64,000 nt of DNA from Paenibacillus chitinolyticus NBRC 15660. GTDB taxonomy: Bacteria; Bacillota; Bacilli; Paenibacillales; NBRC-103111. Position numbers and translations under genes: made by a program. The notes below the pieces were generated by a model. That model searched no databases, was not told the origin of the DNA, and saw only the letters and a program-made list of their open reading frames with translations. The stretch is taken from assembly GCF_000739915.1 (NCBI RefSeq), contig NZ_BBJT01000002.1, positions 372,001-436,000 of the forward strand. The letters are read 5' to 3'. This document shows positions 21,130 to 62,298 of this stretch, one piece after another. Position 1 is the stretch's first letter. The number at the start of each line of letters is the position of its first letter.

Positions 21130-22863
21130 TCAGCCGTACAATCTAGCGTAATAGCCGCCCTGTTCCAGCAGATCCCGGTGCGTTCCCCGCTCCACAACCG
21201 TTCCCTGGTTCATCACGGTAATGGAATCCGCCTTCTCCACGGTGCTCAGGCGGTGGGCGATCAGGATCGTCGTCCGCCCCTTCATCAATTCGTTCAGAGC
21301 CTGCTGCACCCAATGCTCCGACTCGTTATCGAGTGCGGACGTCGCTTCGTCCAGGAGCAGAATCGGGGCATTTTTCAGGATGGCTCTGGCAATCGCGATA
21401 CGCTGTCTTTGTCCGCCGGACAAAGACGCTCCCCGCTCCCCTGCCTGGGTTCCATACCCGCCTGGCAGTTCCTCGATAAAATGATGGGCATACGCGGCCT
21501 TGGCCGCTTCGATCACATCGTCCGTTGTCGCCTGCGGGTTGCCGTAACGGATGTTCTCTTCGATCGTTCCGCTAAACAGAAACGGCTCCTGCGGGACATA
21601 AGCGATCTGCCCGCGAATTTCGTCCAGTGTATAGCTGCCGAAGAGTTTGCCTCCAAGCAAAATTTCCCCGCTGTCCACGGGATAAAAGCCGAGCAGCAGC
21701 TTGATCAGCGTGCTTTTGCCGCTCCCGCTCGCGCCCACGATAGCCGCGACTTGTCCCGGATATACCTTCATGGACATCCGGTACAGCACTTTTTTGTCCG
21801 CCTGATAGGAAAATTCGACGTCCCGGAACTCCACCATCGCCTCCGAGGACCTCTTAGGATCGGGCAAGCCCAGCCTTTCCGGCTCTTCTTCCTCCGATAA
21901 AATTTCCTCAATCCGGTGTGCGCCGGCTAACGAATTTTGCGCCATAGACAGCACCGTCCCGAAATTCATAATCGCATGAGTCAGGTTAATCTGGAGAACG
22001 GCAAGCGCCGCAACGCTCCCCATCCCGATCAGCCCGAAAGCGTACAGCAGACTCCCGATGACGATAATTCCGCAGAACGTGACATAGCTGACAAAATGGT
22101 TCACGGCAGCCTGCAGCCCGTTCTTCTTTGCGGTCTGCTCGGCAAGCCGGGTGACGTCTTCGTTCAGGCTCCGGTACTGGGAATAAACCGGCCGGATATG
22201 AAACAATTTCACGAGCTGAATGCCTCCGATAAAGTCTTTAAACTTTTCGGTCATCCGTGCTAAAGTTTGCAGCGACTTCTCGGAAAGGACACGGATTTGC
22301 CGGGCAAACCGGGCACTGATCGAGAAAGAAAGGAGCAGAACGAGCAGCGATACGGAGGCGAATCTCCAGTCGATCAGCACCATCGAAATAATGGAGCCGA
22401 CACTGAACACCACTTGCAGCAGCAGCATGAAATAAATGCTGGAAAAGGTGAGTTCTACCGCGGCCACATCGTTATTTACCCGCGACATCAAGTCTCCGTG
22501 GTGCGTCTGTTCCAGATATTTCGGCCGGAGCCGGCAAAACTTCCTGTACAGACGCTCCCGCACGTCTACGATCGTAAATTCGACGCTCCGCTGGTACAAA
22601 TACGTAAACCAGGGAGAAATCACATTTTCCAAGAATAAGGCTCCCGCCAGGATATAAAACGCCCGGTACATCAGCGCCGAATCCCGGTAATCGGCAAAGT
22701 TGACCAGATTCTGCACAACCAGACTGAAAGAAACGAGAAACAGCGTCTGGTTGACCGCCGTAATACCGAGACCCGTGTAGTACTGAATTTTGCGTCTGCG
22801 GTTCATGAATCTCATTAAATACCCGAGTTCTTTCACCTGTGAGACTAACCCGCCGCCTTTCAT
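21130..22863 (-). CDS. ABC transporter, fused permease/ATPase (second exporter subunit)
   Basis: The 577-residue half-transporter has six membrane segments in about residues 20-310 (ABC type-1 fold). Its nucleotide-binding domain shows Walker A VGASGSGKST (about 373), Q-loop YVPQEPF, signature LSGGQRQRIA, Walker B ILLLDEATSALD and the switch His in LIAHRLST. Its start overlaps the stop of the upstream ABC gene by 4 bases, with AGGAGG 10 bases before the ATG. Together they should form a heterodimeric exporter, as PmxC/PmxD-type proteins do in polymyxin clusters. It probably exports the lipopeptide and protects the producer; this is inferred from position. Confidence 0.92.
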   Translation of the reverse strand: MKGGGLVSQVKELGYLMRFMNRRRKIQYYTGLGITAVNQTLFLVSFSLVVQNLVNFADYRDSALMYRAFYILAGALFLENVISPWFTYLYQRSVEFTIVDVRERLYRKFCRLRPKYLEQTHHGDLMSRVNNDVAAVELTFSSIYFMLLLQVVFSVGSIISMVLIDWRFASVSLLVLLLSFSISARFARQIRVLSEKSLQTLARMTEKFKDFIGGIQLVKLFHIRPVYSQYRSLNEDVTRLAEQTAKKNGLQAAVNHFVSYVTFCGIIVIGSLLYAFGLIGMGSVAALAVLQINLTHAIMNFGTVLSMAQNSLAGAHRIEEILSEEEEPERLGLPDPKRSSEAMVEFRDVEFSYQADKKVLYRMSMKVYPGQVAAIVGASGSGKSTLIKLLLGFYPVDSGEILLGGKLFGSYTLDEIRGQIAYVPQEPFLFSGTIEENIRYGNPQATTDDVIEAAKAAYAHHFIEELPGGYGTQAGERGASLSGGQRQRIAIARAILKNAPILLLDEATSALDNESEHWVQQALNELMKGRTTILIAHRLSTVEKADSITVMNQGTVVERGTHRDLLEQGGYYARLYG

Positions 22864-24644: not shown

Positions 24645-24675
24645 TGGATCCCCCTTCCCGGCGATGGACTGTAGG

Positions 24676-27600
24676 TCAGCTTCCATGCAGCACCTTCGAC
24701 GATGCTCCGTTTCGCTGTGCGACTTCCTCCAGAATCCGGAGGATGACCCCAGCCGTCCCGTCCAGACATTCCGGCTCAAGCAGCTTCTCGTGCGCGCCAG
24801 CAAGCTTGTACTCCGTGTAGGTATCCTGAGCCGCTCCGCGCCATGTCGGCAAACCTTGCTCCAACCGGAAAGCGTCGCTGTCTTCGGCGATCAGCTCGTG
24901 GATACGCCCTTCGACCGTACCGCTGTTAAGAAGCTGCGCTTCATACGTCAAAGTGGCGCGCACCTTGATGCTGACACGCTCGCGGATAACGGGATTCGCC
25001 ATCATTTCTTTTTCCGTATCCGACAAATCCTCCAGTATTTCCTGCCATTCGCTTTCAGTCGTCTCTGCGGGCGTCAAAGTCTCCTTAATCCAGGAGTCCA
25101 CCATGATCAGGTCCGAGACGCGATAGCCTCTCTTCTCCATTCTTTGAGCGACTTCGAACATCAAATTCCCGCCGAAACAATAGCCGAGCAGCACGTAAGG
25201 AGCTTCCTCTTGAATGCTTACGATTTCATCGATATAGTCATCCAGCATCTCTTCGTAGCTTTTCGCCTCTTCCTTAAAATCGGTCCCGTACAAGACGAAA
25301 CGGTCGTCCAATAGGTTCGCAAGTTCCCGGTACCCGATGCCGAATCCGCTTCCCGGAGGAAAGCAGAATACATTCAAAGCGCCGTTTTTATTCAGCTTGA
25401 TAAACGATTGGCCCTTCTCCAAGCCCGTTTCTCCGCTCCCGAACGCCATCGCTTCCACGGTCAGATTCTTGAACTGCTGGTTCAGCGGCACTTCGATTCC
25501 GGTTTCGTCGTAGACCGCCTGAATCAAACGCATGAGGCTCAGAGAGCTTCCTCCGAGTTCGAAGAAATTGTCTTTCACGCCGACCCTCCGGAGACCGAGC
25601 ACGTCCTTCCAGATTTGGGCGATCTTCACTTCCATCAGCGTGCGGGGCGCGATATACTCTTCCGCCTGCTCCACACTCTCTTCCGGGGCGGGCAGCGCCT
25701 TCCGGTCGATTTTGCCGTTCGGCGTCAGCGGCATCCGGAGCAGCTGCACGAAGTGCGCCGGGATCATGTAACCCGGCAGCTCTTTAGCCAGCGCTTCCTT
25801 CAGTGCGGCGGCCGTCAGCTTCGATTGCGCCACGAAGTAAGCGCACAACTGCTGACCGTCCGCCTCCTCCCGGGCGATGACGATCGCTTCTTGTACGGAC
25901 GACACTTTCAGAAGCTGCTCCTCGATTTCGCCCGTCTCGATGCGGTAGCCGCGGACTTTCACCTGATGGTCGATCCGGCCCCTGTACTCGATGTTCCCGT
26001 CCGGCAGCCACCTAGCCAGGTCTCCGGTCCGGTACATCCGCTCGCCCGGCGAAAAGGGGTTGTCCACGAACTTCTCGGCCGTCAGCTCGGGACGGTTCAA
26101 ATATCCTCTCGCCAAGCCGACGCCCGCGATGCACAACTCTCCCTCTACACCTACAGGAACCGGCTGCCGATAATCGTTCAGAATATAAATCCGGTGATTC
26201 TGAATCGGCCGGCCGATCGGGACCGATTTTAGTCCGATATCGCCTGTGCAGGCAGTCCAAACCGAGGTAACGATCGAAGCTTCCGTCGGTCCGTATGCGT
26301 TGAAATAACGCACTTTGTCTTTCCACTGCTGGACGAATTCAGCCGATACCGCCGAGCCCCCGGTAATCAGCTTTTGAAGGTCGGGCATATGATCCGGGTT
26401 TAAATAGGCCGCATACGTCGGCGGCAGGATGGCGGCCGTAATTCCGTTTTCGTGCATGTAACGCTGGAACGACCGGTTATCCAGAATGGTCTCGGCTGTG
26501 GGGATGTAGAGTGCGGCCCCGAAAAACAGCGCCTTGAACACTTCCCAGCACGACGCGTCGAACGACAGGCTCGCGAACTGGACGACTCTGTCCGTTTCGG
26601 TGATGCCCAGCGTGTCCCGGAACATGTTCTTCAGACTGACCAGGCCGTGGTGTTCCAGCATCACGCCCTTCGGTTTCCCCGTCGTGCCGGACGTATAGAT
26701 CACGTAAGCCAGGTGCTCCGGTCCATTAACCGGCTCCAGATTCGTTCCGTCGCCGCTGTAGGAACTCTCGTCGTCAAGCGTCAATACGGTTCCTTCGAAC
26801 GGAACACGATCCAGCAGCCGCCGCTGAGTCAGCAGCAGCTTCGCACCCGAATCTTCCAGCAGGTAGCGGATGCGCTCCTCGGGATATTCGGGGTCGATCG
26901 GCACATACGCGCCGCCCGCTTTCAGCACCGCCAAAATGCCGACCGCTATTTCCAGCGAGCGTCCGGCCATCAAGCCGACAAGCTGATCCGGCTGCACACC
27001 GGCCGCACGCAGCGTACGCGCCAGCCGGTTCGCCCGCTCGTTCAGCTCCCGATAGGTGAGACGTTCCTGCTCGTAAACCACGGCTGTCGCATCCGGAACG
27101 CGGGCAGCCTGCTCTTCGATCAGCCCATGAATCGTTTGCTCCCGTTCATAGTGCGTTTCCGTGTGATTAAAATCAACAAGAAGCTGCTGCTTTTCGTTAG
27201 GCGAGAGCATATCCGCGTCGCCGAATTCAAGATCCGGCTGAACTAAAAGGATGGACATAAGCTGCACGAGATGTCCCGCGGCTTTTTCAATAAAATCGCG
27301 GTTATAGCGCCCGCTGTTAAAACTCACGTTCATCCCGATAGAGTTTTCATTCGATTCGAATTGAAAAACGGTATCTGCAGCGGCCTTTCCTTGAATATCC
27401 GCTTTATGGATTTTTTTGTAGGTAACAATCGTATTTAGAACAGGGGTCCCTTCGGGAGTAGTTTCGATATTCAGGGAACCCGTCATTTTCCGGAACGGAA
27501 GATGCTGATTTTCCAGCGCTTCGCCTATCGCCAGCTTAACTTGACCAAGCAGGGATTTGAACGTGCTTTGACGGTTTATGTACGTTTTAATCAGGAGAAA

Positions 27601-27924
27601 ATCGTGGATCGACGGTTCGTCTCCGGGTCCCGTTGCGGCCGGAATCCCGACGAGCACGTTGTCCCGCCTTGCGTAATTGTGGAGCAGGCAGTTTACTCCC
27701 GCCAGCACGATCATAAAAACAGCCAAATCCGAACCGTTGGCAAGCCGGAGGATTCTTTCGGACAGCATGGGCGGCAGCGTGAGGCTGACAACGTCCGGTT
27801 TCTCTTCGGAATTCGGTTGGCCCACAGCCTTGGAGGGTGGATTGTAAGGAAGAAAAGTCAAGCTGTCATCGGGATTGAACTTTTCTTTCCAATACATTTC
27901 TTCCTTTTCAAACAACGATTTCAT
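24676..27924 (-). CDS. octC: Terminal nonribosomal peptide synthetase: half C - A8 - T - thioesterase
   Basis: This 1082-residue enzyme adds residue 8 and releases the peptide. Domains: an N-terminal C-lobe-only condensation segment (about 1-235, no HHxxxDG), A8 (about 250-760, YTSGTTGKPKGV near 411), carrier domain with FFELGGSSLSL near 788, and thioesterase (about 840-1075). The A8 code reads D-A-W-I-I-G-A-I-V, identical to A4 and suited to Leu or Phe. The thioesterase motif is GYCFGG: Cys916 replaces the usual Ser, with likely partners Asp943 and His1045. ATG follows GGGGAGG by 5 bases, 106 bases after the octB stop. The octapeptin-type assignment rests on module order and codes; the symbol is by analogy. 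Confidence 0.88.
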   Translation of the reverse strand: MKSLFEKEEMYWKEKFNPDDSLTFLPYNPPSKAVGQPNSEEKPDVVSLTLPPMLSERILRLANGSDLAVFMIVLAGVNCLLHNYARRDNVLVGIPAATGPGDEPSIHDFLLIKTYINRQSTFKSLLGQVKLAIGEALENQHLPFRKMTGSLNIETTPEGTPVLNTIVTYKKIHKADIQGKAAADTVFQFESNENSIGMNVSFNSGRYNRDFIEKAAGHLVQLMSILLVQPDLEFGDADMLSPNEKQQLLVDFNHTETHYEREQTIHGLIEEQAARVPDATAVVYEQERLTYRELNERANRLARTLRAAGVQPDQLVGLMAGRSLEIAVGILAVLKAGGAYVPIDPEYPEERIRYLLEDSGAKLLLTQRRLLDRVPFEGTVLTLDDESSYSGDGTNLEPVNGPEHLAYVIYTSGTTGKPKGVMLEHHGLVSLKNMFRDTLGITETDRVVQFASLSFDASCWEVFKALFFGAALYIPTAETILDNRSFQRYMHENGITAAILPPTYAAYLNPDHMPDLQKLITGGSAVSAEFVQQWKDKVRYFNAYGPTEASIVTSVWTACTGDIGLKSVPIGRPIQNHRIYILNDYRQPVPVGVEGELCIAGVGLARGYLNRPELTAEKFVDNPFSPGERMYRTGDLARWLPDGNIEYRGRIDHQVKVRGYRIETGEIEEQLLKVSSVQEAIVIAREEADGQQLCAYFVAQSKLTAAALKEALAKELPGYMIPAHFVQLLRMPLTPNGKIDRKALPAPEESVEQAEEYIAPRTLMEVKIAQIWKDVLGLRRVGVKDNFFELGGSSLSLMRLIQAVYDETGIEVPLNQQFKNLTVEAMAFGSGETGLEKGQSFIKLNKNGALNVFCFPPGSGFGIGYRELANLLDDRFVLYGTDFKEEAKSYEEMLDDYIDEIVSIQEEAPYVLLGYCFGGNLMFEVAQRMEKRGYRVSDLIMVDSWIKETLTPAETTESEWQEILEDLSDTEKEMMANPVIRERVSIKVRATLTYEAQLLNSGTVEGRIHELIAEDSDAFRLEQGLPTWRGAAQDTYTEYKLAGAHEKLLEPECLDGTAGVILRILEEVAQRNGASSKVLHGS
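25177..25179 (-). other. Cysteine codon at the thioesterase nucleophile position
   Basis: The minus-strand codon TGT encodes Cys916 within LLGYCFGGN, where type-I thioesterases normally have G-x-S-x-G. The surrounding frame is intact on both sides. Confidence 0.9.
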
Positions 27925-27967
27925 GCGTACCTCCCCTAAAATGATATCGGCTCATACCCGGAGTGCA

Positions 27968-27986
27968 TGCCCTCTTTCTTCGGGCA
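27968..27986. other. Small hairpin in the gap between octB and octC
   Basis: TGCCC pairs with GGGCA across a 9-base loop. No T-run follows on the minus strand, so it is not a terminator. It may be an RNA-processing or stability element, or chance. Confidence 0.25.
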
Positions 27987-28030
27987 CACACTCTTCAGAT
28001 ATGAACAACTAGTACCTGGCAGGGCTTCGT

Positions 28031-34000: not shown

Positions 34001-37000
34001 GTAGGCGAGATCGTGCGGCTGGGTTTCGGCCGGGACACCGTCCGGTGTGCCTGAATCGGACAAGCTGCCGGACGCTGCACTGTCAGCCGAATCTCCGTTT
34101 ACGCTGCCTTCCAGAACGACTCCGACAGCCGCATTCTCTCCGTCTCCGCTGTACGACTTTTCGTCGTCCAGGCAAAGGATCGTGCGCAGCGACGTCTCTT
34201 CCGCTTCCAGCCAAGCCTCGCTGCTCTCTCTCAGAGACGTCTGCGTCAGCAGCACCGTCGCCCCGCTGTCTTCGAGCATAAAGCGGATGCGGTCGGCCGG
34301 ATAATCCGGGTCAAGCGGCACATACGCGCCTCCCGCTTTCCATACGGCGATGACGCCGACGAGCAGCTCTACCGAACGCTCGGCCAAAATGCCGACGATC
34401 GACTCTCTGCCGACGCCGCCTTCCCGCAGCGTTGCCGCCAGCCGGTTCGCCTTTTCGTTCAGCTCCCGGTAGGTCAACTGCTTGTCTTCGTAGACAACGG
34501 CCGCCGCATCGGGAGTCGAGACCGCCTGTTCCTCGAACAGCCGGTGGAACGTCTGCACCTGCGGAAGCTCGGACATGGCCGGATTGAACGCTTCGAACAG
34601 CTGCTCTTTTTCGAAAAGAGTGAGCAGTTCCAGCTCGGCAATTTTTGCCTCCGGCTTCTCCGCTATGGCACCGAGCAGCTGCTCGAAATGCTGCGCCATC
34701 CGTTCTACCGTTTCTTTTTTATACAAGGAAGTCGCATACTCCAAGCTGCACTCTAGACCGCCGCTTTCTTCCACGACATCTAAGCTGAGGTCGAACTTCG
34801 CCATGCCGTACTCGCTCGGATAAGAAGTGAGCTTGAGCCCTTCCAGCTCAAATTCCTTGTTTTCCAGGTTTTGCAGAGAGAACATCGTATCGAAAATCGG
34901 ATTACGGCTCAAGTCACGGGCCGTCTGTACCTTTTCGACCAGCTCCTCGAACGGGTAAGTCTGATGCTCGTATGCGCCCAGAGTCGTTTCTTTGACCTCC
35001 TGCAAGTACGACAAGAACGTTTTGCCGGCGGCCGGGTAATTACGGATTGCCAGTGTATTGACGAACATTCCGATCAGCGGCTGCACGTCCCCGTGGGTTC
35101 TTCCGGCAATCGAAGTTCCTACGACCAGATCTTCCTGAGCCGTATATTTATGCAAAAGCACCGTATAAGCGGCAAGCAGCACCATATAAAGCGTCGAGCC
35201 GCTTTCTGCCGCAAGTCGTTTTAAAGCTTCGCTCTTCTGTGCGTCGACAAAAAATTCAAGTGTCTGTCCTTCGTAGCTCTGTACGGCGGGCCGGGCAAAA
35301 TCCGTCGGCAGCTCCAGTACGGGCAGCTCTCCCCGGAAAACATCGAGCCAGTAAGCTTCCTGCCGCTTCAACTGTTCTTTCTGCCCCTCCGATTGCTGCC
35401 ATACCGCGTAATCCTTGTATTGAATGTGCAGAGGTTCCAGTTCTTCGCCGCTGTACAGCCGGACAAACTCCTCCACCAGCACATCCATCGAAACGCCGTC
35501 GGACACGATATGATGCATATCGAACATCAGAATATGCCGGTCTTCCGCCAGCTCAATTAAGCCAACCCGGAGTAAAGGCGGCGCCGCCAAGTCGAACGGC
35601 CGGATGAACTTCTGCACGGCTTCGACCGCCTCTTCTTCGCTTGCCCGGATATGCTCCACCGAAAAGTCCGCGTCGCTGTCTATCCGCTGCACCGCTTCCC
35701 CGTTTATGATCCCGAAACCGGTGCGAAGCGTCTCATGACGGGCGATCAGTCCGCGGAACGCTTCTTCGAATCGATGCCGGTCCAGCGCTCCTTCCAGCAG
35801 CAAAGCTCCCGGCATGTTGTAACTTTGATCCGCCCCTTCCAGCTGTTGAAGGATGAACAGCCTTTTTTGCGCGGAAGATAACGGGTAATAATCGCTTTCC
35901 TCTGCCTTGGGGATCGAAGAGAACGAAAGCTGCGCCAGATTTGCAATCGCTTGAGCCATCTCTTCTACGGTCGAATAAACAAAAACATCCTTCAGCGGGA
36001 AATCTACGTGAAGCTCTTTGCGTAACCGGCTGACAAGCGTTGTCGCACGCAGAGAATGTCCTCCGAGTTCGAAGAAATTGTCCTTCACGCCAACCTTCTC
36101 GAGTCCCAATACGCTCTGCCAGATTGCGGCCAGGTCCGTTTCCAGCGGAGTCCGTGGTGCCGTATGCTCCGTCCCCTCCTGCAAACTAAGTTCCGGCGCC
36201 GGGAGCGCTCTGCGGTCCACCTTGCCGTTAGTCGTTAACGGCATTTCCTCCAGCTGGACGAAGTAAGAAGGAATCATATACCCCGGAAGCTCCCGGGATA
36301 AGGCGCTTCTTAATCGGCTTGCCTGCAGCTCGCCGTCCGCCGTGAAATAGGCGCAAAGCTGTTTGTCTCCGCTGGCCGTTTCACGGGCGATTACAGTTGC
36401 TTTCCGGATGGATTCCACCTTCAGCAGCTGTGCCTCTATCTCGCCAAGCTCGATCCGGAAGCCGCGGATTTTCACTTGATCGTCCATCCGGCCCACATAT
36501 TCGATCGTTCCGTCCGGCAGCCATCTCGCCACGTCCCCGGTCCGGTACATGCGTTCTCCCGGAACGAAAGGATTGTCCACGAATTTCTCCGCCGTCAATT
36601 CAGGCCGGTTCAGGTAGCCCCGGACCAAGCCTTCGCCGGCCACGCAAAGTTCCCCGGCTACACCGATCGGCTGCAGATTGTTGCGGGCATCCACGATATA
36701 GGCCGTCGTATTGCTGATCGGACGACCGATCGGAACATTCACGGCGTCCTCGGCCACTTCGTTCACTACATAGTACGTGGCGTACACCGTGCTCTCCGAA
36801 GGGCCATACAAATGAATGATTTTGCCCGGACCCAGATGATCGACCGCTTTACGGACATGACCGACCGAAACACGCTCTCCGCCGAACAGAATGGCCCGCA
36901 TATGCCGCAAACAATCCACATTTACATCCACGAGCACGTTGAAAAAAGCGGTCGTAATGAGCGAAACCGTGATCCGCTGCCTTTCGATCAACTCGGCCAG

Positions 37001-40000
37001 CTGCCCGATTTCGAGCATGATCTCTCTCGGAATGAGAACGAGGCCCGCCCCGTTGACCAAAGCGCCGAAAATATCGGAAATCGACCCGTCAAAAGAATAA
37101 CTGGACAACTGAAGAACCCGGTCCTGCTCCGTAATCTCGACGTAGTTCGTATTTCGTGCGATCCGGATAATGTTCCGGTGCGATACCAGGTTTCCTTTCG
37201 GATTCCCGGTCGTCCCCGAGGTATAGATCACACAGGCCAAATCGGCCGATTCGTTGATTCGTTCCAATTCCGACCCATCGGGGTGGTAAGACCCTTCGTC
37301 ATCCAGTACGATCACGACTCTTTGGACGGGAATCCGTTCCTGCAGATGACGCTGCGTCAGCATAACCCGGGCGCCCGAGTCTTCGATGAGGTACCGGATA
37401 CGTTCTTCCGGGTATTCCGGATCGATCGGTACATAAGCGCCGCCGGCTTTCAGCACGGCCATAATGCCGACGATCATTTCGATGGAACGTTCGACAACAA
37501 TGCCTACGAGACAGTCCCGGCCGACTCCTTCGCCCCGGAGCATACGTGCCAGGCGGTTCGCCCGCTCATTCAGCTCGCGGTACGTAAGTTCCTTTTGCTC
37601 AAATACGACCGCCACTGCATCCGGTATCCTCTCCGCATGTTCCTCAAACAGCTGATGAAGGGTTTTGTCCCGCGGGAATTCCGTCGTTGTGTCGTTGAAC
37701 GCTTCAATAATTTGCGACTTTTCAGCCGCCGTCGCGAGCTCCAAATCGCCCACTTTGACCCGGGGATCGTTCACGACTTGTTCGAGCACAAGCAGAAGTT
37801 GTCCCCGCAAACGCTCGATGTCCGCTTTCGCAAACACGCCCGCATTGTAATCGAAGCGTATTTCAATGGCTTCTCCCGGCACGACCGTCATGTTAAAATC
37901 GTAATTCGTCTGTTCCGCCATCTCGACATCCGCGATAGCCAGACCGCCCGTTTGGCTGCCGCCCGCCTGCTGCATCTGCTCGTCCATCGGATAGTTCTCG
38001 AATGCGATAATATGGTGGATAAGATCCTGCTTCTGGGCGCTTCGGGCCTGGATCTCATACAGCGGATAATAATCGTAGCGGCCGGATTCCAGCGCCTGCT
38101 CCTGCACCTTGGCCATGACCTCGGCAAAAGACGTATCCGGCTCGCTCGTCACCCGCACCGGTACCGTATTGATGAAAAGACCGATCATCTCTTCGATTCC
38201 CGGAATCTCAGCCGGTCTTCCCGAGACGACGCTGCCAAACACCGCATCGCCCGTCCCGTTAATCTTTTGCAAAACGACGCCCCATGCCGATTGCAGCAAG
38301 GTGTTTAACGTGGCCTGCTGCTGCTTGGCCACCCGCTCCATCCGTTCGCTCAAGCTTTTGCCCAGCTCGCAAACGACATGCTCCGGAAGAAACGGTCCGC
38401 TTTTCGCATCGGTCTTTTTGGGAAGCTCCGTCTGTCCGTCATACCCTTCCAGATAGCCGGACCAGTAGCGGGAAGCACTTTCCTCATCCTGTTTCTCCAG
38501 CCACTCGATGTATTGACTGTAGTCCGTTGAAGCGGTGCGTTCCGGCTTCTCATTCCGGACAAAGGCCGAGTAAGTTTCGAACAACTCCTGCGTAAGCTGC
38601 GGCAGGCACCAGCCGTCCATCAAAATATGCTGGAAGCTGAGCAGCACGTGATAGCGGTGTTCATCCGTCCGGAGAACCGTGACACGCACAAGCGCATCCC
38701 GCTCCAGATCGAAGCCCCGCAGCCTGTCTTCTTCCGCTTTCTTATCGGTATAGGCTGTGCGTCCCGCAGAATCCAGCTGCAGCAAATCTTCATATTCAAA
38801 CCCGACGGGCTTGTCCCGGTACACGATTTGCATAGGTTCCGCGCCCGCTCCGCTGTAAAAATTAGTCCGCAGCACGACATGCCGCGCAGCCAATTCGGCC
38901 CAGCTTTTGGAGAAAACATCGACATCCAGCTCGCCCAGCAGCGTAAAACGCGCTTGCTCGAAGTAGGCGCCTGTCTGCGGGTCCATCGCGCTGTGGAACC
39001 ACATCCCCTTCTGCATAGGCGTGAGGGTATAGATATTCTCGATCTCGCCGATAGGCGCCGTGTCTTCGGCAATCCGCTCCATGTCCGTAACGGTCAGACC
39101 TTTAAACTGTACGTCGCTAGGCGTCAGCTCCGTCTTCTCTTTAGCCGCGCAGTGGGCGATGATTTCACGGAGGCTCTGCTCCAGCAGCGAAACCAGTCTC
39201 TCTATTGTCGCTTTGTGGAACTGTTTCCGGCTGTAGCTCAGGTCAAGCGACAGCGAACCGTTCAGCACCATGCCGTTAATGTCCAGCACGAAGCTGCGCG
39301 CCTGCCGGTCGCTTGCCGGGCTTCCGCCCGGATACGGCGATAGACCCATCTCGTTATTTTGCAGATCGTCGTCGAACTGGCCCAAATAGTTAAAGTTAAT
39401 TTCCGGTTCGGCGCCCCACACCAAGCCGTCCGTCTTCTCCGAAAGGTACCGGCATACTCCGTATCCGATCCCTTTGTTCGGAATCCGGCGAAGACTTTCT
39501 TTTACCGCTTTGATTTGATGCGACAAGTCTTTGCCGCTCTCCGGCTCCAGCACAACGGGGAACTTGCTCGTAAACCAGCCTATCGTACGCGTAATGTCGA
39601 TATCCGTTCCGATGAATTCACGCCCGTGGCCTTCCAGATTTACAAGGACCCGGTCATGTCCGCTCCATTTCTGTACGGCGGCTCCCAGAGCGGCAATCAG
39701 GATATCGTTCATTTCCGTGTTATAGGCCCGGTGTACCCGTTTCAGCAGCAGCTCCGTTTCGTCGGGAGTCAATACGGCAAAGAGCGATTCGCTGTCCCGC
39801 TGCTGTGAGTCCACCTCATCCATATCTTTCGGCAAAGGAGGCACAGATGTACGTTCCACGCCCTGCCAATAGGCCTTCTCCATATCCATATCCGGGCTTT
39901 GCGCGTAGGCCGCAAGCTGCCCCGACCAGCCAAGGTAGGAATCGGTTTTCGCGGGAAAACGGATGTCTTGTCCCCGGCCTGCCTGCTCGTACCCGAGCGC

Positions 40001-42958: not shown

Positions 42959-42978
42959 CGTTCCCCTCTCTTTTCGTT

Positions 42979-43033
42979 AAAAAAAGCGATCCGGCGGATT
43001 GCATACGGAATGCGCCGTACGCACATCCGCCGG
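42979..43033 (-). terminator. Terminator-like hairpin between octA and octB
   Basis: On the minus strand a stem of about 18 bp (CCGGCGGAT-G-TGCGTACGG against CCGTATGCAATCCGCCGG, one bulge, one G-T pair) is followed after GATCGC-type sequence by seven T. The 5-base gap between stem and T-run may make it inefficient. It lies inside the operon, between the octA stop at 43042 and the octB start at 42958, so partial termination would lower expression of octB and later genes. Confidence 0.6.
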
Positions 43034-43041
43034 GTAAAGCT

Positions 43042-49000: not shown

Positions 49001-52000
49001 GGCTGGGTTTCGGACGGGACACCGTCCGGTGTGCCTGAGGCTGCGCTGTCAGCCGAATCCCCTTTTACGCTGCCTTCCAAGACGACTCCGACAGCCGCAT
49101 TCTCTCCGTCTCCGCTGTACGACTTTTCGTCGTCCAGGCAAAGAATCGTGCGCAGCGCCGTCTCTTCCGCTTCCAGCCAAGCCTCGCTGCTCTCTCTCAG
49201 AGACGTCTGCGTCAGCAGCACCGTCGCTCCGCTGTCTTCGAGCATAAACCGGATGCGGTCGGCCGGATAATCCGGGTCAAGCGGCACATATGCGCCTCCC
49301 GCTTTCCATACGGCGATGACACCGACGAGCAGCTCTACCGACCGCTCGGCCAAAATGCCGACGATCGACTCTCTGCCGACGCCACCTTCCCGCAGCGTTG
49401 CCGCCAGCCGGTTCGCCTTTTCGTTCAGCTCCCGGTAGGACAACTGCTTGTCTTCGTAAACAACGGCCGTCGCATCGGGAGTCGAGACCGCCTGTGCCTC
49501 GAACAGCCGGTGGAACTTCTGCACCTGCGGAAGCTCGGACATGGCCGGATTGAACGCTTCGAACAGCTGCTCTTTTTCCGAAAGCGTAAGCAGCTCCAAC
49601 TGTTCGACGGGGATGTTCGGATCGGCCGCAGCCTGCTCGACCGCCCGGGTGAAATGCCCGTGAATCCCACGGATGTCTTCCTCGCTGAACGTATCCGCAT
49701 TATAGGTGAACCGGATCACAGTCCGCTCGCCCGGAATAACCGTTATATCGAAATCGTAGTTCGTTTGCTCCGGGGCCTGAATGTTGGAAATGGCCAAAGC
49801 TCCGTTTCCTCCGATAAGCTGTTCGATCCGTTCCTCCATCGGATAGTTTTCGAATACCATGATATGGCTGATAAGATCGCGTTTTTGTTCGCTAAGCGCC
49901 TGGATTTTGTAAAGCGGGAACGTATCGTACGCGCCGGAAGCAAGCGCCTGCTCCTGGGTTTTTCGCAACACATCCGCCACGGATTCTCCCGCTTCGCTCC
50001 GGACCCGGACCGGAATCGTATTGATAAACAGGCCGATCATGCTTTCCACACCGGCGATATCCGCCGGACGGCCTGAAACGACGCAGCCGAACACGACATC
50101 CCGGCTGTTGTTATACACCTGCAGAACGAGACCCCAGAGCGTTTGGACGAACGTACTTAGCGTTACCTGATTTTGCCTGGACACGCGCTCGATCCGTTCG
50201 CTCAGTTCCCGGCTGAATTCGAATTCCAGTTCGACCGCGTTGAAACGTTCCCCTTTACGCTGCGCTTTTTCCTGAGGAAGCTTCGTGTGCTGGTCGTAAC
50301 CGTTCAAGTAACCGCTCCAATAGTCGGCTGCCGCATTCCGATCCTGTTTCTCCAGCCATTCGATATAACGGGCGAACGGGGTAACGGGAGGAAGTTCCGG
50401 TTTTCTTTTTTCCAGGAACGCGAAATAGCTTTCAAACACTTCCTTGATCATGAAGGACATGCACCAGCCGTCCATCAGGATATGATGGTGGCTCCAGATC
50501 ACATGCCAGGTTTGTTCATCGGTCCGCACAAGGGTCACCCGCATAAGCGAGTCATGCGCCAAATCAAATTTCCGGGCTTTGTCCGCCTCTGCCAGTTCTG
50601 CGAGTGCTTGCTCCCTCTCCGCCTCGTCAAGTCCGCTTACATCTTCGTAGTAAACTTCGCCTTTCCGCTGACGAAACACGATCTGAACCGGCTCATCTTT
50701 CCATCCGCTTATAAAATTGGTCCGAAGCGCTTCATGCCGTTGAATCAGCACGTCCAGCCCTTTCGCAAAAGCCTCAGCGTCGAGGCTGCCCTGCAGATCA
50801 AACGTCACCTGCTCGAAATAGGCTTCCGAATCCGCGTCCAGCAGGCTGTGGAACAGCATGCCCTTTTGCATCGGAGTCAGCGTATACACATTTTCCAGCT
50901 CGCCGATTGCGGCGGTGTGTGCCGTCAGCTGCTCCAGCTCTTCCACGGACAGCTCAGGCAGCAGGACATCGCTCGGCGTGAGCTCCGGCAGATCCTTGGA
51001 CAAGCAGTGCGCAATTACGGCCCGCAAGCTTGTTTCCAACAGACTCCCCAGCCGTTCAATCGTTTCCCGGCGGTACTGCGTCGTTCCGTAGCGGATCGTA
51101 AGCTCGAGCGAGCCCTCCGTGACCATACCGTTCATGTCGAGCGCAAAATCCATCATCGCGTTTTCACTGATATCGTTCCCAGTTGAGAACGGAGAAGGTT
51201 CCAGGCCGCTGCTCTCATAATCCTGATCGAACTGTCCCAGATAGTTGAAACTGATTTCCGGATCGGAATCGAAAAGGTCGCCTTCCCGTCCTTCCGACAA
51301 ATACCTCAGAATGCCATAGCCGATTCCCTTGTTAGGGATGCGCCGGAGTCCTTCCTTCGTCTGCTTGATCTGCTGCGAAAGCGTCTGATCCCGGCCGCTC
51401 TCCAGCAAGACCGGAAACTGGCTGGTGAACCACCCGACGGTGCGCGTGATATCCACTTCCGGCAGAATATCTTCCCGGCCGTGGCCTTCCAGATTCACCA
51501 GCACCCGGTTCTGCCCGGTCCAGGCTTGAACGGCCATACCGAGCGCGGTAAGGAGGAGATCGTTCATCTCGGTATTGTAAGCACGGTGCGCCTGTTTCAA
51601 AAGCTGCTCCGTCTCGCCTTCCGTCCATCTTACGGTGACGACATCGCTGTCTTTGAGCGTTGACTTCGCCTGCCCCAAATCTTTGGGCAGCAGTGTCTGC
51701 TCAAGCTGCCCGATCTGCCTCCAGTAAGCCCGCTCGGATTCTAGCGCCTCACTGTCCGCATAGCGGGACAACTGCCCGGCCCATGTTTGGAACGAATCCG
51801 TTTTATGCGGAAGCGAAATCGCTTGTCCGCCGAGAGCCTGTTCGTAGCCGGCCGCAAAATCTTCGAACAAGATGCGCCAGGATACACCGTCCACAACAAG
51901 ATGGTGGATGGCCATGAGCAAATGGTCGCCATCCGGGCAGCGGAACAAGCCCAGCTTCACCAAAGGCCCGTTTTCAAGGTCGATGCTCCCCTGAATTTCG

Positions 52001-55000
52001 CTCGCCTTTGCCTCAACGGCTGCCTTGCAGTTTCCGAGGCCCGTGAAATCAGCCACTTCCAGGCTGAACAATTCTTCCTCCGTCCCCCGGTTCCATGCTT
52101 CATATCCGGCTTCGGTTTTTCGGTAAACCGTACGCAGCGCGTCATGGTGCTCGACCAGCTTAGCGATCGTTTTCCTCAGAGCCGTTTCCTCGAAACCCTC
52201 CCTGCGGTACTGCATGAAAGCCTGATTGCTGTGGTGCGGGTCGGCCGGATTTTGCCCGAAAAACCAGCGCTGAATCGGCGTCAGCGTCACGGCTCCCGTT
52301 ACTTCTTCCTGGCTGGCGGTTTTACCGGCCGTTTGAAGCTGCGGACTGAGGGACGCTATCGTCGGATAGTGGAAAAGATCACGCATAACCAGCTTGTAAC
52401 CGGCCTGAAGGAGCCTTGAAGAAACTTGCAGTGCTTTAATCGAATCGCCGCCAAGTCCGAAGAAATTGTCCGACAGACCGACTCTGTCTACGCCCAGCAC
52501 GGACTGCCAGACGGCGGCAAGCGCCTGCTCCGCCGGAGTTCGGGGAGCGATGTATTTCACCTCGGCCTGTACGCTTCCTTCCGGCTCGGGCAGCGCCTTG
52601 CGGTCCACCTTGCCGTTCGGCGTAAGAGGCAGCCGGTCCAGACGCATCACGCGAGCCGGTACCATATGCGAAGGGAGCGTCTGCTCCAGGTACGCGTGCA
52701 ATTCTCTGGTATCGATTTCAGATTCCGATACAACGTAGCCGCACAAATACTTCTGGCCCCGCTCGTCGGTACGGTCGGTCACGACCGCTTGGCGGATGCC
52801 GTCAAAACGCAGCATCGCCGTCTCGATTTCGCCGAGCTCGATCCGGTATCCCCGGATCTTCACCTGGTAGTCGATCCGCCCGATGAAATCCACGTTGCCG
52901 TCTTCCATCCAGCGAGCCAGATCGCCCGTGCGGTACAGGCGCTCTCCGGCAGCGAACGGGCTGTCCGCAAACTTCTCTTCCGTCAGCTCCGGACGGTTCA
53001 TGTATCCCCGGGCGACGCCCGGCCCGCCGATGCACAACTCGCCCAGAATTCCTACGGGAACGGGGTTCAACTGAGCGTCCACGATATAAAATTTCGCATT
53101 CAACCAGGCTTTGCCGATCGGCACGTTTCCGGCTTCCGGCAGCTTGTAGAGCGGTTCGTCGTAGAAGCTCGAATCAATTGCCGCCTCCGTCACGCCGTAG
53201 CTGTTGATGATCCGGAACTGAGAGCCGAACCGTTCCTGCAGCAGCCGGTAATCTTCCACACTGCAGCTATCGGAGCTGGTGATGAGCAGCTCCATCGAGC
53301 TCATATCGAGCTTCTGCTGCGCCACATGCTCCATAAACGGGATGATCAGCGCAGGCGTCGATTCGAACACGGTAATCTGACGGCTCTGTATCCAGCCGTG
53401 CAGGCGTGTCGGATCGATCCGGTCGTCTTTCGGGCAGATGACCATGGTGCCGCCGTTGTACAGCGTCCGGGCGATATCTCCGACGAACACGTCGAAGGAA
53501 AAGCTCGCCAGCTGCAGCAGGCGTACGGGGAACTGATCGAGCCGGTATTCCTTGCGATAGGCGGCTGCCGTATTCACCAGACTCCGGTGCTCGATCATTA
53601 CGCCTTTCGGCCGTCCCGTCGTGCCGGATGTGTAGATCACGTAGGCAAGGTCGTCCGGCCGGCTCTCCGCCGGCGCGTTCTCTCTTTCTTCGCTGTACGA
53701 CTTCTCGTCGTCCAGGCATAGAATCGTGCGAAGCGCTCCGCCTTCTCCCTGCCACGTTCCCGCTCTGTCCCTCAGTCCGCTTTGCGTCAGCAGTACAGCC
53801 GCACCGCTGTCTTCGAGCATGTAGCGGATGCGATCGGACGGATAATCCGGGTCCAGCGGAACGTACGCGCCACCGGCTTTCCATACCGCCATGACGCCGA
53901 CGAGCAGATCGACCGATCGGTCGGCCAGAATGCCCACGACCGATTCTCGGCCGATCCCGGCTCCCCGCAGCGAACCCGCCAGGCGGTTGGCCCGCTCGTT
54001 GAGTTCCCCATATGTTAGCTCATTGTTCTCGTACACCACTGCCGTCGCACTCGGGTTTAACACCGTCTGTTCCTCGAACAACTGGTGGAACGTTTGGACA
54101 GGCGGAAGTTCGGACGCCGGCGGATTGAATTCCGTCAAAATCTTATTCTTCTCCCCGTCGCTCAGCATGGACAGCTCACGCACGGTCTGCAAAGGATTAA
54201 GGACGATCTGGTCAATAATAGTAAACAACTGCTCCGAGATTCGCAGAATTTCGCTCTCATCGAACAACTGAACCCGGTAATCGATATTCAAATCAATTTC
54301 TTTGTCGTCGAGCATATCTACAACGTGTACGGCAAAATCGCCCACTTCGTGCCCGGAATGACTGCTTTTCCGAATAACGCTGAGGCCGTCGTAATAAGTC
54401 CAGTTCACGGGCAAATATTCGATGTCCACCCGGAACAATTCGGGAACGTCCCACTGCTTGTTCCGCTCTCTTAAGTCTTGAATAAGCTGATTGTACGGGT
54501 ATTTCTGGTGGCGGAGATTCGCTTTCTGTTCTTTGGAAACATGCTGTAAAAACGCCAATACATGCTGATCCGGCTCGAGCAGCATTCGAGTCGCAACCGT
54601 ACTCACGAACATCCCTAACGTCTCTTTTTCCTGCTTCGACGTCCGGTTCGCATAGATGGTACCGACTGTAATATCTTCATTTCCCGTTACTTTATGGAGC
54701 AATATGTATAGAGCCGCCAAAAACACCGTAAAGGTACTGATATTGTGCTCTTCGCTGAAACGCTGCAGCTGCTCGTAGCGCTTGCCCGCGAAGGGCACAC
54801 TCACCCTGTCGGCCTCCGTGCTCACGGAGTAAGGCGAACTCGGTTTCATTCGTGTTATTTCCGAGAAGGATTCGAACTTGTCCAGCCAGTAGGCTCTGTC
54901 CTTCTGGTAGCGATCCGAACGCTCGTATTCTTGTTCGGCGTAGATGTAATCGAGATAAGTCCCTTTGGCTTTAGCGTCCGGTTCTTGGCCGTCGATTAAT

Positions 55001-55479
55001 TTTGTATAGTTTTCCATAATCGTGGTGCAAATAAGATGAGATGCGATACCGTCCGCTATGCTGTGATGTATTTTTAAGTTAAACCAATGTTCTTCGTTAT
55101 TTAGATTAAACAGGCAGAATTGATACAGTTGTTCGTCAAATATGGATAACGGCGTATGATTAAACCGTTCCAGCCACTCTTTCGCTTCGGCTTCGCTGCC
55201 CATTTCCAGATAATCGCAGCGCGGTTCAATGTCCGATTCATTCGCAAACCACTGGACGGGTTCGCCGGCATCGGAAGACGAAATCCGGATTCTGAACGCA
55301 TCATGGTCCCGGACCAGCTTGTAGATCGCTTGCATCAAAGCGTCGGTATTCACGGGTCCGCGAATAAACAAAGTACCCACGATGATTCCGACCGATGTAT
55401 TCGGATACATCATTTCCATACTCCATATTCTTCGCTGCGCTTGAGTTAAAGCAAACCGTTTGTTCGTATTTTCTCTCAC
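43042..55479 (-). CDS. octA: Three-module nonribosomal peptide synthetase with starter C domain (modules 1-3)
   Basis: A 4145-residue enzyme that starts the lipopeptide. Order and approximate positions: starter C (1-440, KIHHSIADG near 140), A1 (480-980), T (GGDSIKA near 1010), E (1060-1500, HHLVVDGVSW near 1196), D-L type C (1530-1960, HHHILMDGW near 1665), A2 (1990-2530), T (2560), C (2620 on, HHIVSDG near 2746), A3 (3050-3610), T (3641), final C (3700-4120, HHLVSDG near 3831), and a tail ending LEAIDIVF. All three A domains show code D-V-G-E-I-S-S-I-D (2,4-diaminobutyrate). A C domain at the very start points to N-acylation by a fatty acyl donor. Translation starts at GTG, 7 bases after AGGAGAG; an ATG two bases upstream is out of frame. 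Symbol by analogy. Confidence 0.9.
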   Translation of the reverse strand: MRENTNKRFALTQAQRRIWSMEMMYPNTSVGIIVGTLFIRGPVNTDALMQAIYKLVRDHDAFRIRISSSDAGEPVQWFANESDIEPRCDYLEMGSEAEAKEWLERFNHTPLSIFDEQLYQFCLFNLNNEEHWFNLKIHHSIADGIASHLICTTIMENYTKLIDGQEPDAKAKGTYLDYIYAEQEYERSDRYQKDRAYWLDKFESFSEITRMKPSSPYSVSTEADRVSVPFAGKRYEQLQRFSEEHNISTFTVFLAALYILLHKVTGNEDITVGTIYANRTSKQEKETLGMFVSTVATRMLLEPDQHVLAFLQHVSKEQKANLRHQKYPYNQLIQDLRERNKQWDVPELFRVDIEYLPVNWTYYDGLSVIRKSSHSGHEVGDFAVHVVDMLDDKEIDLNIDYRVQLFDESEILRISEQLFTIIDQIVLNPLQTVRELSMLSDGEKNKILTEFNPPASELPPVQTFHQLFEEQTVLNPSATAVVYENNELTYGELNERANRLAGSLRGAGIGRESVVGILADRSVDLLVGVMAVWKAGGAYVPLDPDYPSDRIRYMLEDSGAAVLLTQSGLRDRAGTWQGEGGALRTILCLDDEKSYSEERENAPAESRPDDLAYVIYTSGTTGRPKGVMIEHRSLVNTAAAYRKEYRLDQFPVRLLQLASFSFDVFVGDIARTLYNGGTMVICPKDDRIDPTRLHGWIQSRQITVFESTPALIIPFMEHVAQQKLDMSSMELLITSSDSCSVEDYRLLQERFGSQFRIINSYGVTEAAIDSSFYDEPLYKLPEAGNVPIGKAWLNAKFYIVDAQLNPVPVGILGELCIGGPGVARGYMNRPELTEEKFADSPFAAGERLYRTGDLARWMEDGNVDFIGRIDYQVKIRGYRIELGEIETAMLRFDGIRQAVVTDRTDERGQKYLCGYVVSESEIDTRELHAYLEQTLPSHMVPARVMRLDRLPLTPNGKVDRKALPEPEGSVQAEVKYIAPRTPAEQALAAVWQSVLGVDRVGLSDNFFGLGGDSIKALQVSSRLLQAGYKLVMRDLFHYPTIASLSPQLQTAGKTASQEEVTGAVTLTPIQRWFFGQNPADPHHSNQAFMQYRREGFEETALRKTIAKLVEHHDALRTVYRKTEAGYEAWNRGTEEELFSLEVADFTGLGNCKAAVEAKASEIQGSIDLENGPLVKLGLFRCPDGDHLLMAIHHLVVDGVSWRILFEDFAAGYEQALGGQAISLPHKTDSFQTWAGQLSRYADSEALESERAYWRQIGQLEQTLLPKDLGQAKSTLKDSDVVTVRWTEGETEQLLKQAHRAYNTEMNDLLLTALGMAVQAWTGQNRVLVNLEGHGREDILPEVDITRTVGWFTSQFPVLLESGRDQTLSQQIKQTKEGLRRIPNKGIGYGILRYLSEGREGDLFDSDPEISFNYLGQFDQDYESSGLEPSPFSTGNDISENAMMDFALDMNGMVTEGSLELTIRYGTTQYRRETIERLGSLLETSLRAVIAHCLSKDLPELTPSDVLLPELSVEELEQLTAHTAAIGELENVYTLTPMQKGMLFHSLLDADSEAYFEQVTFDLQGSLDAEAFAKGLDVLIQRHEALRTNFISGWKDEPVQIVFRQRKGEVYYEDVSGLDEAEREQALAELAEADKARKFDLAHDSLMRVTLVRTDEQTWHVIWSHHHILMDGWCMSFMIKEVFESYFAFLEKRKPELPPVTPFARYIEWLEKQDRNAAADYWSGYLNGYDQHTKLPQEKAQRKGERFNAVELEFEFSRELSERIERVSRQNQVTLSTFVQTLWGLVLQVYNNSRDVVFGCVVSGRPADIAGVESMIGLFINTIPVRVRSEAGESVADVLRKTQEQALASGAYDTFPLYKIQALSEQKRDLISHIMVFENYPMEERIEQLIGGNGALAISNIQAPEQTNYDFDITVIPGERTVIRFTYNADTFSEEDIRGIHGHFTRAVEQAAADPNIPVEQLELLTLSEKEQLFEAFNPAMSELPQVQKFHRLFEAQAVSTPDATAVVYEDKQLSYRELNEKANRLAATLREGGVGRESIVGILAERSVELLVGVIAVWKAGGAYVPLDPDYPADRIRFMLEDSGATVLLTQTSLRESSEAWLEAEETALRTILCLDDEKSYSGDGENAAVGVVLEGSVKGDSADSAASGTPDGVPSETQPYDLAYVIYTSGTTGRPKGVMIEHRSLVNTAAAYRREYRLDRFPVRLLQLASFSFDVFVGDIARTLYNGGTMVIVPKDDRIDPARLHGWIQDKQITVFESTPALIVPFMEHVAQHELDMSSMELLITSSDSCSVGDYRVLQERFGSQFRIINSYGVTEAAIDSSFYDEPLAKLPETGSVPIGKAWLNARFYIVDAHLNPVPVGVLGELCIGGPGVARGYLNRPDLTEEKFVDSTFVTGERLYRTGDLARWTAEGNVDFIGRIDHQAKIRGYRIETGEVESQLLQADGVREAVVLVREDGSGQKALCAYFTADGELAVSSLRSALAQELPGYMIPSYFIRLERIPLTPNGKVDRKALPAPEAGVDGGAEYIAPRTPLEAKLAAIWQDVLGLQKEIGIRDNFFDLGGHSLRATTLVGKVHKELNVDLPLRDVFRHSTVEDMAEAIANMERQEHVSIPAVEKREFYPLSSAQKRLYILNQLEGAELSYNMPGTLILEGALDRNRFEEASRGLIRRHETLRTGFEMANGEAVQRVYPDVDFSVEHVVASEEEAAETVRNFVRPFDLAKPPLLRVGLVELAVERHILMFDMHHIVSDGVSMDVLVEEFVRLYSGEALEPLRIQYKDYAVWQQSEGQKEQLTRQEAYWLNVFRGELPVLELPTDYARPALQSYEGRTLQFFMDAQKSEGLKRLAAETGTTLYMVLFAAYTVMLHKYTAQEDLIVGTPIAGRTHGDVQPLIGMFVNTLAIRNYPAADKTFLSYLQEVKETTLGAYEHQNYPFEELVDKVQVARDLSRNPIFDTMFTLQNTENKELQLPGLRLAPYASEEIVSKFDLSLDVTETSGGLDYLFEYATSLYKKETIERMAKHYEQLLNAIVKSPEVKIADLELVTPSEKEQLLEAFNPAMSELPEVQTFHRLFEAQAISTPDATAVVYEDKQLSYRELNEKANRLAATLREGGVGRELIVGILAERSVELLVGVIAVWKAGGAYVPLDPDYPADRIRFMLEDSGATVLLTQMSLRESSEAWLEAEETALRTILCLDDEKSYSGDGENAAVGVVLEGSANGDSADSAASGSLSDSGTLDGVPSETQPHDLAYVIYTSGTTGRPKGVMIEHGSLVNTAAAYRREYRLDRFPVRLLQLASFSFDVFVGDIARTLYNGGTMVIVPKDDRIDPARLHGWIHEQQITVFESTPALIVPFMEHVAQNALDMSSMELLITSSDSCSVGDYRVLQERFGSQFRIINSYGVTEAAIDSSFYDEPLAKLPDTGSVPIGKAWLNARFYIVDAHLNPVPVGVLGELCIGGPGVARGYLNRPDLTEEKFVDSPFVTGERLYRTGDLARWTAEGNVDFIGRIDHQAKIRGYRIETGEVESQLLQADGVREAVVLVREDGGGQKALCAYFTADGEHAVSSLRSALAQELPGYMIPSYFIRLERIPLTPNGKVDRKALPAPEAGVDGGAEYIAPRTPLEAKLAVIWQDVLGLQKEIGIRDNFFDLGGHSLRATTLVGKVHKELNVDLPLRDVFRHSTIEEMAQTIAGLEHREHTAIPVLEKRAHYPLSSVQKRLYIQHQMEGAELSYNMSGLMVLKGELDRGRFEAALRGLIGRHEILRTVFEMVDGEPAQVIYPEVNFALEYRQSDEEGAREIAAQFVRVFDLEQPPLLRVGLIGLERNRHILMFDIHHLVSDGVSTGILIDDLLRLYTGESLQPLRIQYKDFASWQQSEAQSERLKKQEAYWLDVLDGELPRLELATDFARPAVRSYEGDVLDFAIDKQQSEALRQIADENGATLYMVFLAAYTILLHKYSGQEDIIVGTPVSGRTHADTEPLIGMFVNTLAIRNYPADEKMFLSYLEEIKETMLGAYENQDYPFEELVEKVQAARDLSRHPIFDTVFVMETREDRISRFGELTVEPYIEAQTVAKFDLTLEVTHEEEGMSGHFEYATKLFTRNMIDNFAEDFLTILSKICEQPHVLLKDLSLNGSSEQEEDLLEAIDIVF
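44442..46331 (-). repeat. Duplicated Dab module copy 2 (A3-T)
   Basis: Covers A3 and its carrier domain in octA. The insert before YTSGTTG contains LEGSANGDSADSAASGSLSD, only one residue from the A6 copy in octB. One carried-over difference is MSLRESSE for TSLRESSE. Confidence 0.8.
47698..49570 (-). repeat. Duplicated Dab module copy 1 (A2-T)
   Basis: Covers A2 and its carrier domain in octA. The insert (LEGSVKGDSADSAASGTPDG) is a shortened form of that in A3 and A6, lacking SLSDS. A1 (about 52500-54050) is clearly more diverged and has no such insert. Confidence 0.8.
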
Positions 55480-59786: not shown

Positions 59787-59988
59787 CGGTATTCCTCCCC
59801 TGCATTTCGTTTAGCTGAACCATTTTAAGACCGTTCAGAAGTACGCTCCACACCTTGTGAAAATCTTCAGCGATTTTGTCCGGGTACCCTTCTTGCACAT
59901 GACTTGCACATGAGCCGGATGATGAAAAGTTCCCGTACACAAGCTCTTCCACTTGCCCCGCATCGAAAAAAAGCGCAGTTCTCTTGGC

Positions 59989-62238: not shown

Positions 62239-62298
62239 TTTTGCTTCTCCTCTCTTTTCGGCTTGTGCTGTCCGTTTTGCTTCCACCGTAACAAAAAG

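Follow-up and report, generated by a model that had tools for sequence, protein, structure and literature searches.

The 64,000-nucleotide (nt) stretch of DNA analysed here (hereinafter the window), positions 372001-436000 of contig C31 in the 6.43 Mb, 32-contig genome of Paenibacillus chitinolyticus NBRC 15660, carries a non-ribosomal peptide synthetase (NRPS) cluster that we read, with a probability of about 0.92 judged from sequence, as the assembly line of an octapeptin-family lipopeptide. A survey of Paenibacillus genomes lists octapeptins as a class with three NRPSs and eight modules (PMC11106739). The present cluster is a new one within this recognised class, to which it adds a mosaic adenylation (A) domain in module 4, a serine at position 239 of the A domain in module 5, and a prediction for the residue at position 5. 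The predicted peptide is acyl-D-Dab-Dab-Dab-D-Leu-X5-Dab-Dab-Leu (Dab, 2,4-diaminobutyric acid), with substrates deduced from the A domains; X5 is most likely Phe, the octapeptin B pattern, and less likely Leu, the A pattern, or Tyr.

All cluster features given below lie on the reverse strand. P1 (43042..55479, 4145 amino acids (aa)) comprises modules 1-3 and reads Cs-A1(Dab)-T-E-C-A2(Dab)-T-C-A3(Dab)-T-C4, where C is a condensation, Cs a starter condensation, T a carrier and E an epimerization domain. P2 (28031..42958, 4975 aa) comprises modules 4-7 and reads half C-A4-T-E-C5-A5-T-C-A6(Dab)-T-C-A7(Dab)-T-C8, and P3 (24676..27924, 1082 aa), half C-A8-T-TE, holds module 8 and the releasing thioesterase (TE). 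The three open reading frames (ORFs) are uninterrupted over their full length and are separated by 83 and 106 nt. Pfam matches place the A domains 3+4+1 and the carrier domains 3+4+1 on P1/P2/P3, and P3 ends with the only thioesterase. Downstream of the NRPS genes lie two ABC exporter genes, T1 (22860..24803) and T2 (21130..22863), the latter overlapping T1 by 4 nt; the listed T1 start is a TTG codon that overlaps P3 by 128 nt, and the true start probably lies further inside the ORF. A prior sequence-only reading of this DNA had proposed eight A domains on three proteins, E domains in modules 1 and 4 only, a C domain at the start, a terminal thioesterase and two downstream ABC exporters, and every one of these elements is borne out here. 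The anatomy is no chance result, because the genes and their order recur in relatives.

To assign the condensation-family domains, ten full domains were compared by pairwise identity. The E domains of module 1 (50992..52296) and module 4 (39104..40441) share 58% identity, while neither exceeds 23% against the other members of the family. C2 and C5, each located directly after an E domain, pair at 53% and contain LTPMQKGM, a start that we take to mark the C class accepting a D-configured donor. C3, C4, C6, C7 and C8 form a group at 55-85% identity, and the starter C domain (54136..55455) stands at the beginning of the line. D residues are thus indicated at positions 1 and 4 only, by the E domains and by the distinct C class downstream of each, as in octapeptins.

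The A domains were extracted by core motif and the nine code positions were taken from an alignment of sequences other than GrsA, in which the GrsA positions were placed through anchor residues. A1, A2, A3, A6 and A7 carry DVGEISSID, presumably the Dab code; A4 and A8 carry DAWIIGAIV, and A5 carries DGSLLGLVY. These codes are identical, letter for letter, to the eight proposed from sequence alone. Dab is therefore indicated at positions 1, 2, 3, 6 and 7, and the module order, Dab-rich codes and stereochemistry match those of octapeptin clusters, which likewise comprise three NRPSs with eight modules and D residues at 1 and 4. The octapeptin-family interpretation offered earlier is supported by this order, the codes, the E domains, the C class that follows them, the thioesterase and the match to Paenibacillus tianmuensis described below. 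Polymyxin lines are defined by ten modules and Thr residues; the window has eight modules and no Thr-type code.

A scan of named genomes with P3 retained 73 loci. Eight of these (L001-L008) align with the whole of P3, with best-segment identities of 67-92%; they belong to Paenibacillus sp. HGH0039 and UNC499MF, P. tianmuensis CGMCC 1.8946, strain A3, P. lutrae, P. oleatilyticus, P. tyrfis YSS-72.2.G2 and FJAT-26967. Residues 1-999 of P1 find matches in all ten genomes searched, these eight relatives included (73-96% over the best pieces), and T1 is present in all five genomes of the window's genus that were examined, its own included, one match having an internal stop. The type strain of P. 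tianmuensis (L003, L076, L077) has the same P1-P2-P3-T1-T2 gene set in identical order and the same A8 code, at 71-78% identity over matched pieces (P1 76% in two frames, P2 76% and 73% in two frames, P3 71%, T1/T2 78%), although assembly gaps break its P1 and P2. It differs in its Dab-type code, DVGEISAID, one letter off that of the window, in a Phe-type A4 (DAWTIAAIC) and in a Leu-type A5 (DGFLLGAVY). HGH0039 (L001, L078-L080) and UNC499MF (L002, L087) share the A4, A5 and A8 codes of the window, with most pieces at 88-97%, and no difference is seen among the modules readable in their gapped assemblies. Repeats leave gaps or contig breaks, and some unread modules, in the assemblies of P. tianmuensis, HGH0039, FJAT-26967, P. 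lutrae, UNC499MF, P. tyrfis and strain A3, and the code alignment covers all eight A domains only for the window and P. tianmuensis, with four for HGH0039. FJAT-26967 was considered as a shorter line, but its A4 and A5 are found on another scaffold (L018) and we read the shortening as assembly collapse.

Fifteen window genes were compared with these loci. Flanking genes on both sides are partly shared with HGH0039 and UNC499MF, while in the P. tianmuensis, P. oleatilyticus, P. tyrfis, strain A3, P. lutrae and FJAT-26967 stretches, whose flanks extend a few kb, only T1 and T2 match. We take the cluster to end at T2, since the neighbours beyond T1/T2 match only in HGH0039 and UNC499MF.

The thioesterase domain (24679..25419) carries a Cys nucleophile in the motif GYCFGG. 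This motif is found in 13 of 36 aligned thioesterase rows, which represent nine octapeptin-type genomes including that of the window (some loci overlap); of the remaining rows, L012 reads GYCIGG and 22 have Ser. GYCFGG also occurs in four polymyxin-type thioesterases (L089-L092). In octapeptins, the carboxyl of residue 8 closes onto the side chain of Dab2, a ring that one review puts in different words (PMC12473245). PMC11735501 cites a paper on the characterisation of a polymyxin thioesterase, whose title describes the enzyme as unique. Compared with the protein pair encoded after the thioesterase gene of the polymyxin-type locus L134, the exporters T1 and T2 show 72% and 78% identity; with the corresponding pair of the pelgipeptin-like control locus L010 the figures are 74% and 72%. 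Because the two loci score about alike, the exporters mark no single family, and as a sign of kinship to polymyxin they are weak.

These shared parts bear on whether the cluster might encode a different Dab-rich lipopeptide of polymyxin, pelgipeptin or polypeptin type. Such lines follow the same general logic, their exporters are about equally near, and the loci that we call polymyxin-type from their codes (L016, L020 and L134) resemble the window in half C starts, a QHxxxDG motif (L016), a Cys-type thioesterase and homologous exporters. On the other hand, the window has eight modules, its line carries only Dab-type, DAWIIGAIV and DGSLLGLVY codes, and P3, at 67-92% to L001-L008, falls to 55% against L134 and 50% against L010; polymyxin-type clusters are further set apart by their ten modules and Thr residues. 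We therefore regard a product of one of these other types as highly improbable.

At its N-terminus, each of P2 and P3 has only a C domain's C-terminal lobe, about 250 residues long and lacking HHxxxDG (42175..42958 and 27141..27924, respectively), and the complete C domains serving modules 4 and 8 form the C-termini of P1 and P2. The two half C domains share 39% identity with each other and 12-24% with full domains. An alignment of twelve half C domains, taken from octapeptin- and polymyxin-type loci, has 51 invariant columns. Half C domains start the proteins at both borders in eight of eight relatives; they also begin proteins in polymyxin-type loci and in a Bacillus spizizenii locus (L050). 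We considered that they might be broken genes and ruled this out, given the same starts in the relatives' P2 and P3, in the polymyxin-type loci and in B. spizizenii. P1 ends in EAIDIVF and P2 in EAIEFAF, and a pattern search found similar tails (e.g. EAIDFVF, DSIEFAF) in seven of eight relatives and none in P. lutrae. Lacking the active-site motif, the half C domains are predicted to be inactive, and each may form, together with the C-terminal end of the preceding protein, a putative docking device. In the literature on half C domains, which includes PMC7253712 and PMC7486941, a C domain that is truncated and probably inactive has been described at the N-terminus of an NRPS, ThdA (PMC7253712).

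A second departure from the usual motifs is found in C5 (37709..39040), in which QHILMDG replaces HHxxxDG. Together with half C domains devoid of an active site, this could signal a cryptic or defective cluster that makes no product. Yet the QH form is common to C5 of six of the eight relatives (HGH0039, UNC499MF, P. oleatilyticus, P. tianmuensis, FJAT-26967 and P. lutrae; P. tyrfis YSS (L014) and strain A3 (L021) have HH) and to the matching C domain of the polymyxin-type L016, so that we ruled it out as a defect; the half C starts recur at both borders in all eight relatives, and the window ORFs are open. A silent cluster is accordingly very unlikely.

The module 4 A domain (approximate limits 40484..42133) is a mosaic, in which the portion beginning in the C-A linker and including the binding pocket shares the history of A8 (25438..27087, approximate limits) and the remainder is of A4 type, as judged from diagnostic sites and trees. 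Seven A8 domains and four Phe-type A4 domains (P. lutrae, FJAT-26967, P. tianmuensis and P. oleatilyticus) carry different fixed residues at 34 sites. The window A4 is A8-like at every one of the first 13 sites, which reach just beyond code position 331, whereas 19 of the last 21 are A4-like and two are neither; the chance of such an order is below 1e-8, assuming independent sites. The tract sharing history with A8 spans 41300..42200, running from the C-A linker to shortly after code position 331, its downstream limit falling somewhere between alignment columns 306 and 454. HGH0039 A4 is split as in the window, and UNC499MF A4 has one A8-like residue in the second part. In trees, the C-part keeps all nine A4 domains apart from all nine A8 domains (100/100), whereas in the N-part the A4 of the window clade joins A8 (99/96). 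The A4 of P. tyrfis YSS is split likewise, and that of strain A3 groups with it.

The direction of exchange is less simple than A8 having overwritten A4, a one-way account that we dropped. For the N-part, the tree joins the A4/A8 group of the window clade to polymyxin-type A6 as its sister (96/96), and the C-part tree puts A4 next to polymyxin-type A6 (91/84); given these placements, A4 is no less likely than A8 to have been the donor. In either direction A4 and A8 share one pocket, and positions 4 and 8 therefore very likely take the same residue, Leu; we consider Leu at both positions highly probable from these sequences. Leu occupies position 8 in octapeptins other than octapeptin D as well, and the table consulted in PMC12206863 gives Leu at 8 in sequence order for octapeptin D only.

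Position 5 was approached through the A5 domain (35966..37615, approximate limits), whose pocket position 239 is encoded by a Ser codon at 37076..37078, as computed by hand from the residue index. A search of 104 family genomes gave 37 A5 matches in 21 genomes, of which 30 were read as loci. Position 239 is Phe in 25 of these 30 domains, Ser in three, Trp in one and Ala in one; Ser239 is confined, among the domains read, to the three genomes of the window's clade, namely that of the window and two (G002 and G004) that are probably HGH0039 and UNC499MF, and all eight A5 relatives compared have Phe. According to published work, W239S in GrsA shifts preference towards Tyr, and by analogy Ser239 is read as opening the A5 pocket for an aromatic residue. 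An aromatic residue at position 5 is, on this basis, the reading we favour, if with limited assurance. The sequence-only reading had left Leu or Phe open at positions 4 and 8 and placed Leu at 5; we now see it the other way round, as 4 and 8 share a Leu-type pocket and position 5, with Ser239 in A5, is the less certain residue.

In nine octapeptin-type genomes A4 and A5 are readable as a pair. Four (P. tianmuensis, P. oleatilyticus, P. lutrae and FJAT-26967) combine a Phe-type A4 with a DGFL(L/V)GAVY A5, three (the window, HGH0039 and UNC499MF) a Leu-type A4 with DGSLLGLVY, and two a Leu-type A4 with a Phe-like A5 (DAFTIGAIC in P. tyrfis YSS, DAWTMGAIC in strain A3). PMC12473245 describes octapeptin A as having no Phe, B as having Phe5 and C as having Phe4, and octapeptin compositions are tabulated in PMC12206863; the nine pairings fit these known groups. 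From the mosaic A4 and Ser239 of A5 we predict that the aromatic residue, if there is one, sits at position 5 in the window's product.

Two other substrates for A5 have to be weighed. The first is Leu, taken despite Ser239, which would give the octapeptin A pattern D-Leu4-Leu5-Leu8. The A5 code agrees in eight of nine letters with DGFLLGLVY, found in the corresponding domain of the polymyxin-type L013, L016, L017, L020, L045 and L049, where the residue incorporated is commonly Leu. Against Leu stand the Phe at 239 of all compared relatives, at a position where exchange of an aromatic residue for Ser moves GrsA towards Tyr, and the pairing of a Leu-type A4 with a Phe-like A5 code in L014 and L021. 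We consider Leu possible, but as the weaker candidate. The second is Tyr or another large residue, which would make an octapeptin absent from the PMC12206863 table; the table as consulted has no Tyr octapeptin, outside position 239 the A5 pocket does not resemble that of GrsA, and we hold this to be improbable.

Several observations weigh against the main reading. The product of the cluster is a prediction from the genes. A Leu-type domain is followed by another Leu-type domain in L020 (polymyxin-type) and L046 (class unknown), which counts in favour of the A pattern; given these pairs, an aromatic A5 need not follow from a Leu-type A4, and the rule that the two always go together is unsupported outside the nine octapeptin-type genomes (L020, L046, and L126 with DAWIIGAIC). 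Only one of the 27 A5 residues unique to the window clade falls among the nine pocket positions, so that enrichment of clade-specific changes in the pocket is not shown and was not kept as an argument. The type strain cluster of P. tianmuensis reads as D-Phe4-Leu5, a C pattern, whereas battacin, the compound reported from that species, perhaps from another strain, is named octapeptin B5 in a paper title in reference lists. AntiSMASH comparisons use octapeptin C4 as one of their named reference clusters (PMC12698334); the window was compared with octapeptin clusters by class description, and its A4/A5 codes fit B (or A) rather than C. Finally, none of the codes, that of A5 included, was found as a plain text string in the papers searched, a search that codes tabulated letter by letter would escape.

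The two changes could be joined in one history, in which recombination between A4 and A8 left a single Leu-type pocket and the replacement of Phe by Ser239 in A5 moved the aromatic residue from position 4 to position 5. We put this forward tentatively, at somewhat less than even odds. If it is true, the product could be octapeptin B or else an undescribed octapeptin with Tyr5. Octapeptins are reported, by title, to be active on highly drug-resistant Gram-negative bacteria (Velkov 2018). The nine related clusters, with a clean mosaic boundary in A4 and one substitution in the A5 pocket, would provide a natural and testable case of changing residue choice within a functioning assembly line, and they point to candidate strains for a B-type compound. 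A second lineage, P. tyrfis YSS-72.2.G2 and strain A3, has the same Leu4/aromatic5 pattern with a different A5.

In the assembly proposed for an octapeptin-family product, the starter C domain would acylate Dab1 with a fatty acid, E1 would convert Dab1 to the D form, and P1 would then add Dab2 and Dab3. The C-terminal C domain of P1 would hand the chain to A4-T4 of P2, where E4 would render residue 4 D, and P2 would add residue 5, Dab6 and Dab7. After transfer by the C-terminal C domain of P2, P3 would add residue 8, and the thioesterase would presumably release the chain by closing its carboxyl on the side-chain amine of Dab2, as expected by analogy. T1/T2 would export the peptide.

Genes that could supply this pathway lie elsewhere in the genome. 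A Dab aminotransferase-type gene (TIGR00709, one of 11 matches above the cut-off) lies at C30:230180-231424, with another NRPS region about 7 kb away, and the phosphopantetheinyl transferase family PF01648 has three matches in the genome. The further large NRPS regions are C30:193284-223231 and C30:286490-312878; the former, which is the one about 7 kb from the aminotransferase-type gene, contains an aminotransferase-family match within a 4254-aa frame.

Rfam scans at the gathering threshold and tRNA scans across the window gave no matches. Window positions 59334-62286, comprising a small ORF and a 765-aa ABC/UvrA-like protein (59989-62286), are unmatched in the stretches compared and look like a strain insertion, because their neighbours adjoin each other in HGH0039 and UNC499MF. 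A streptomycin adenylyltransferase family protein (PF04439) at 62348-63214 is also found near the cluster in those two genomes. Just downstream of the exporters, positions 19458-20897 encode a protein with Mga-type DNA-binding domains, matched only in HGH0039 and UNC499MF among the compared stretches, which is a possible candidate regulator.
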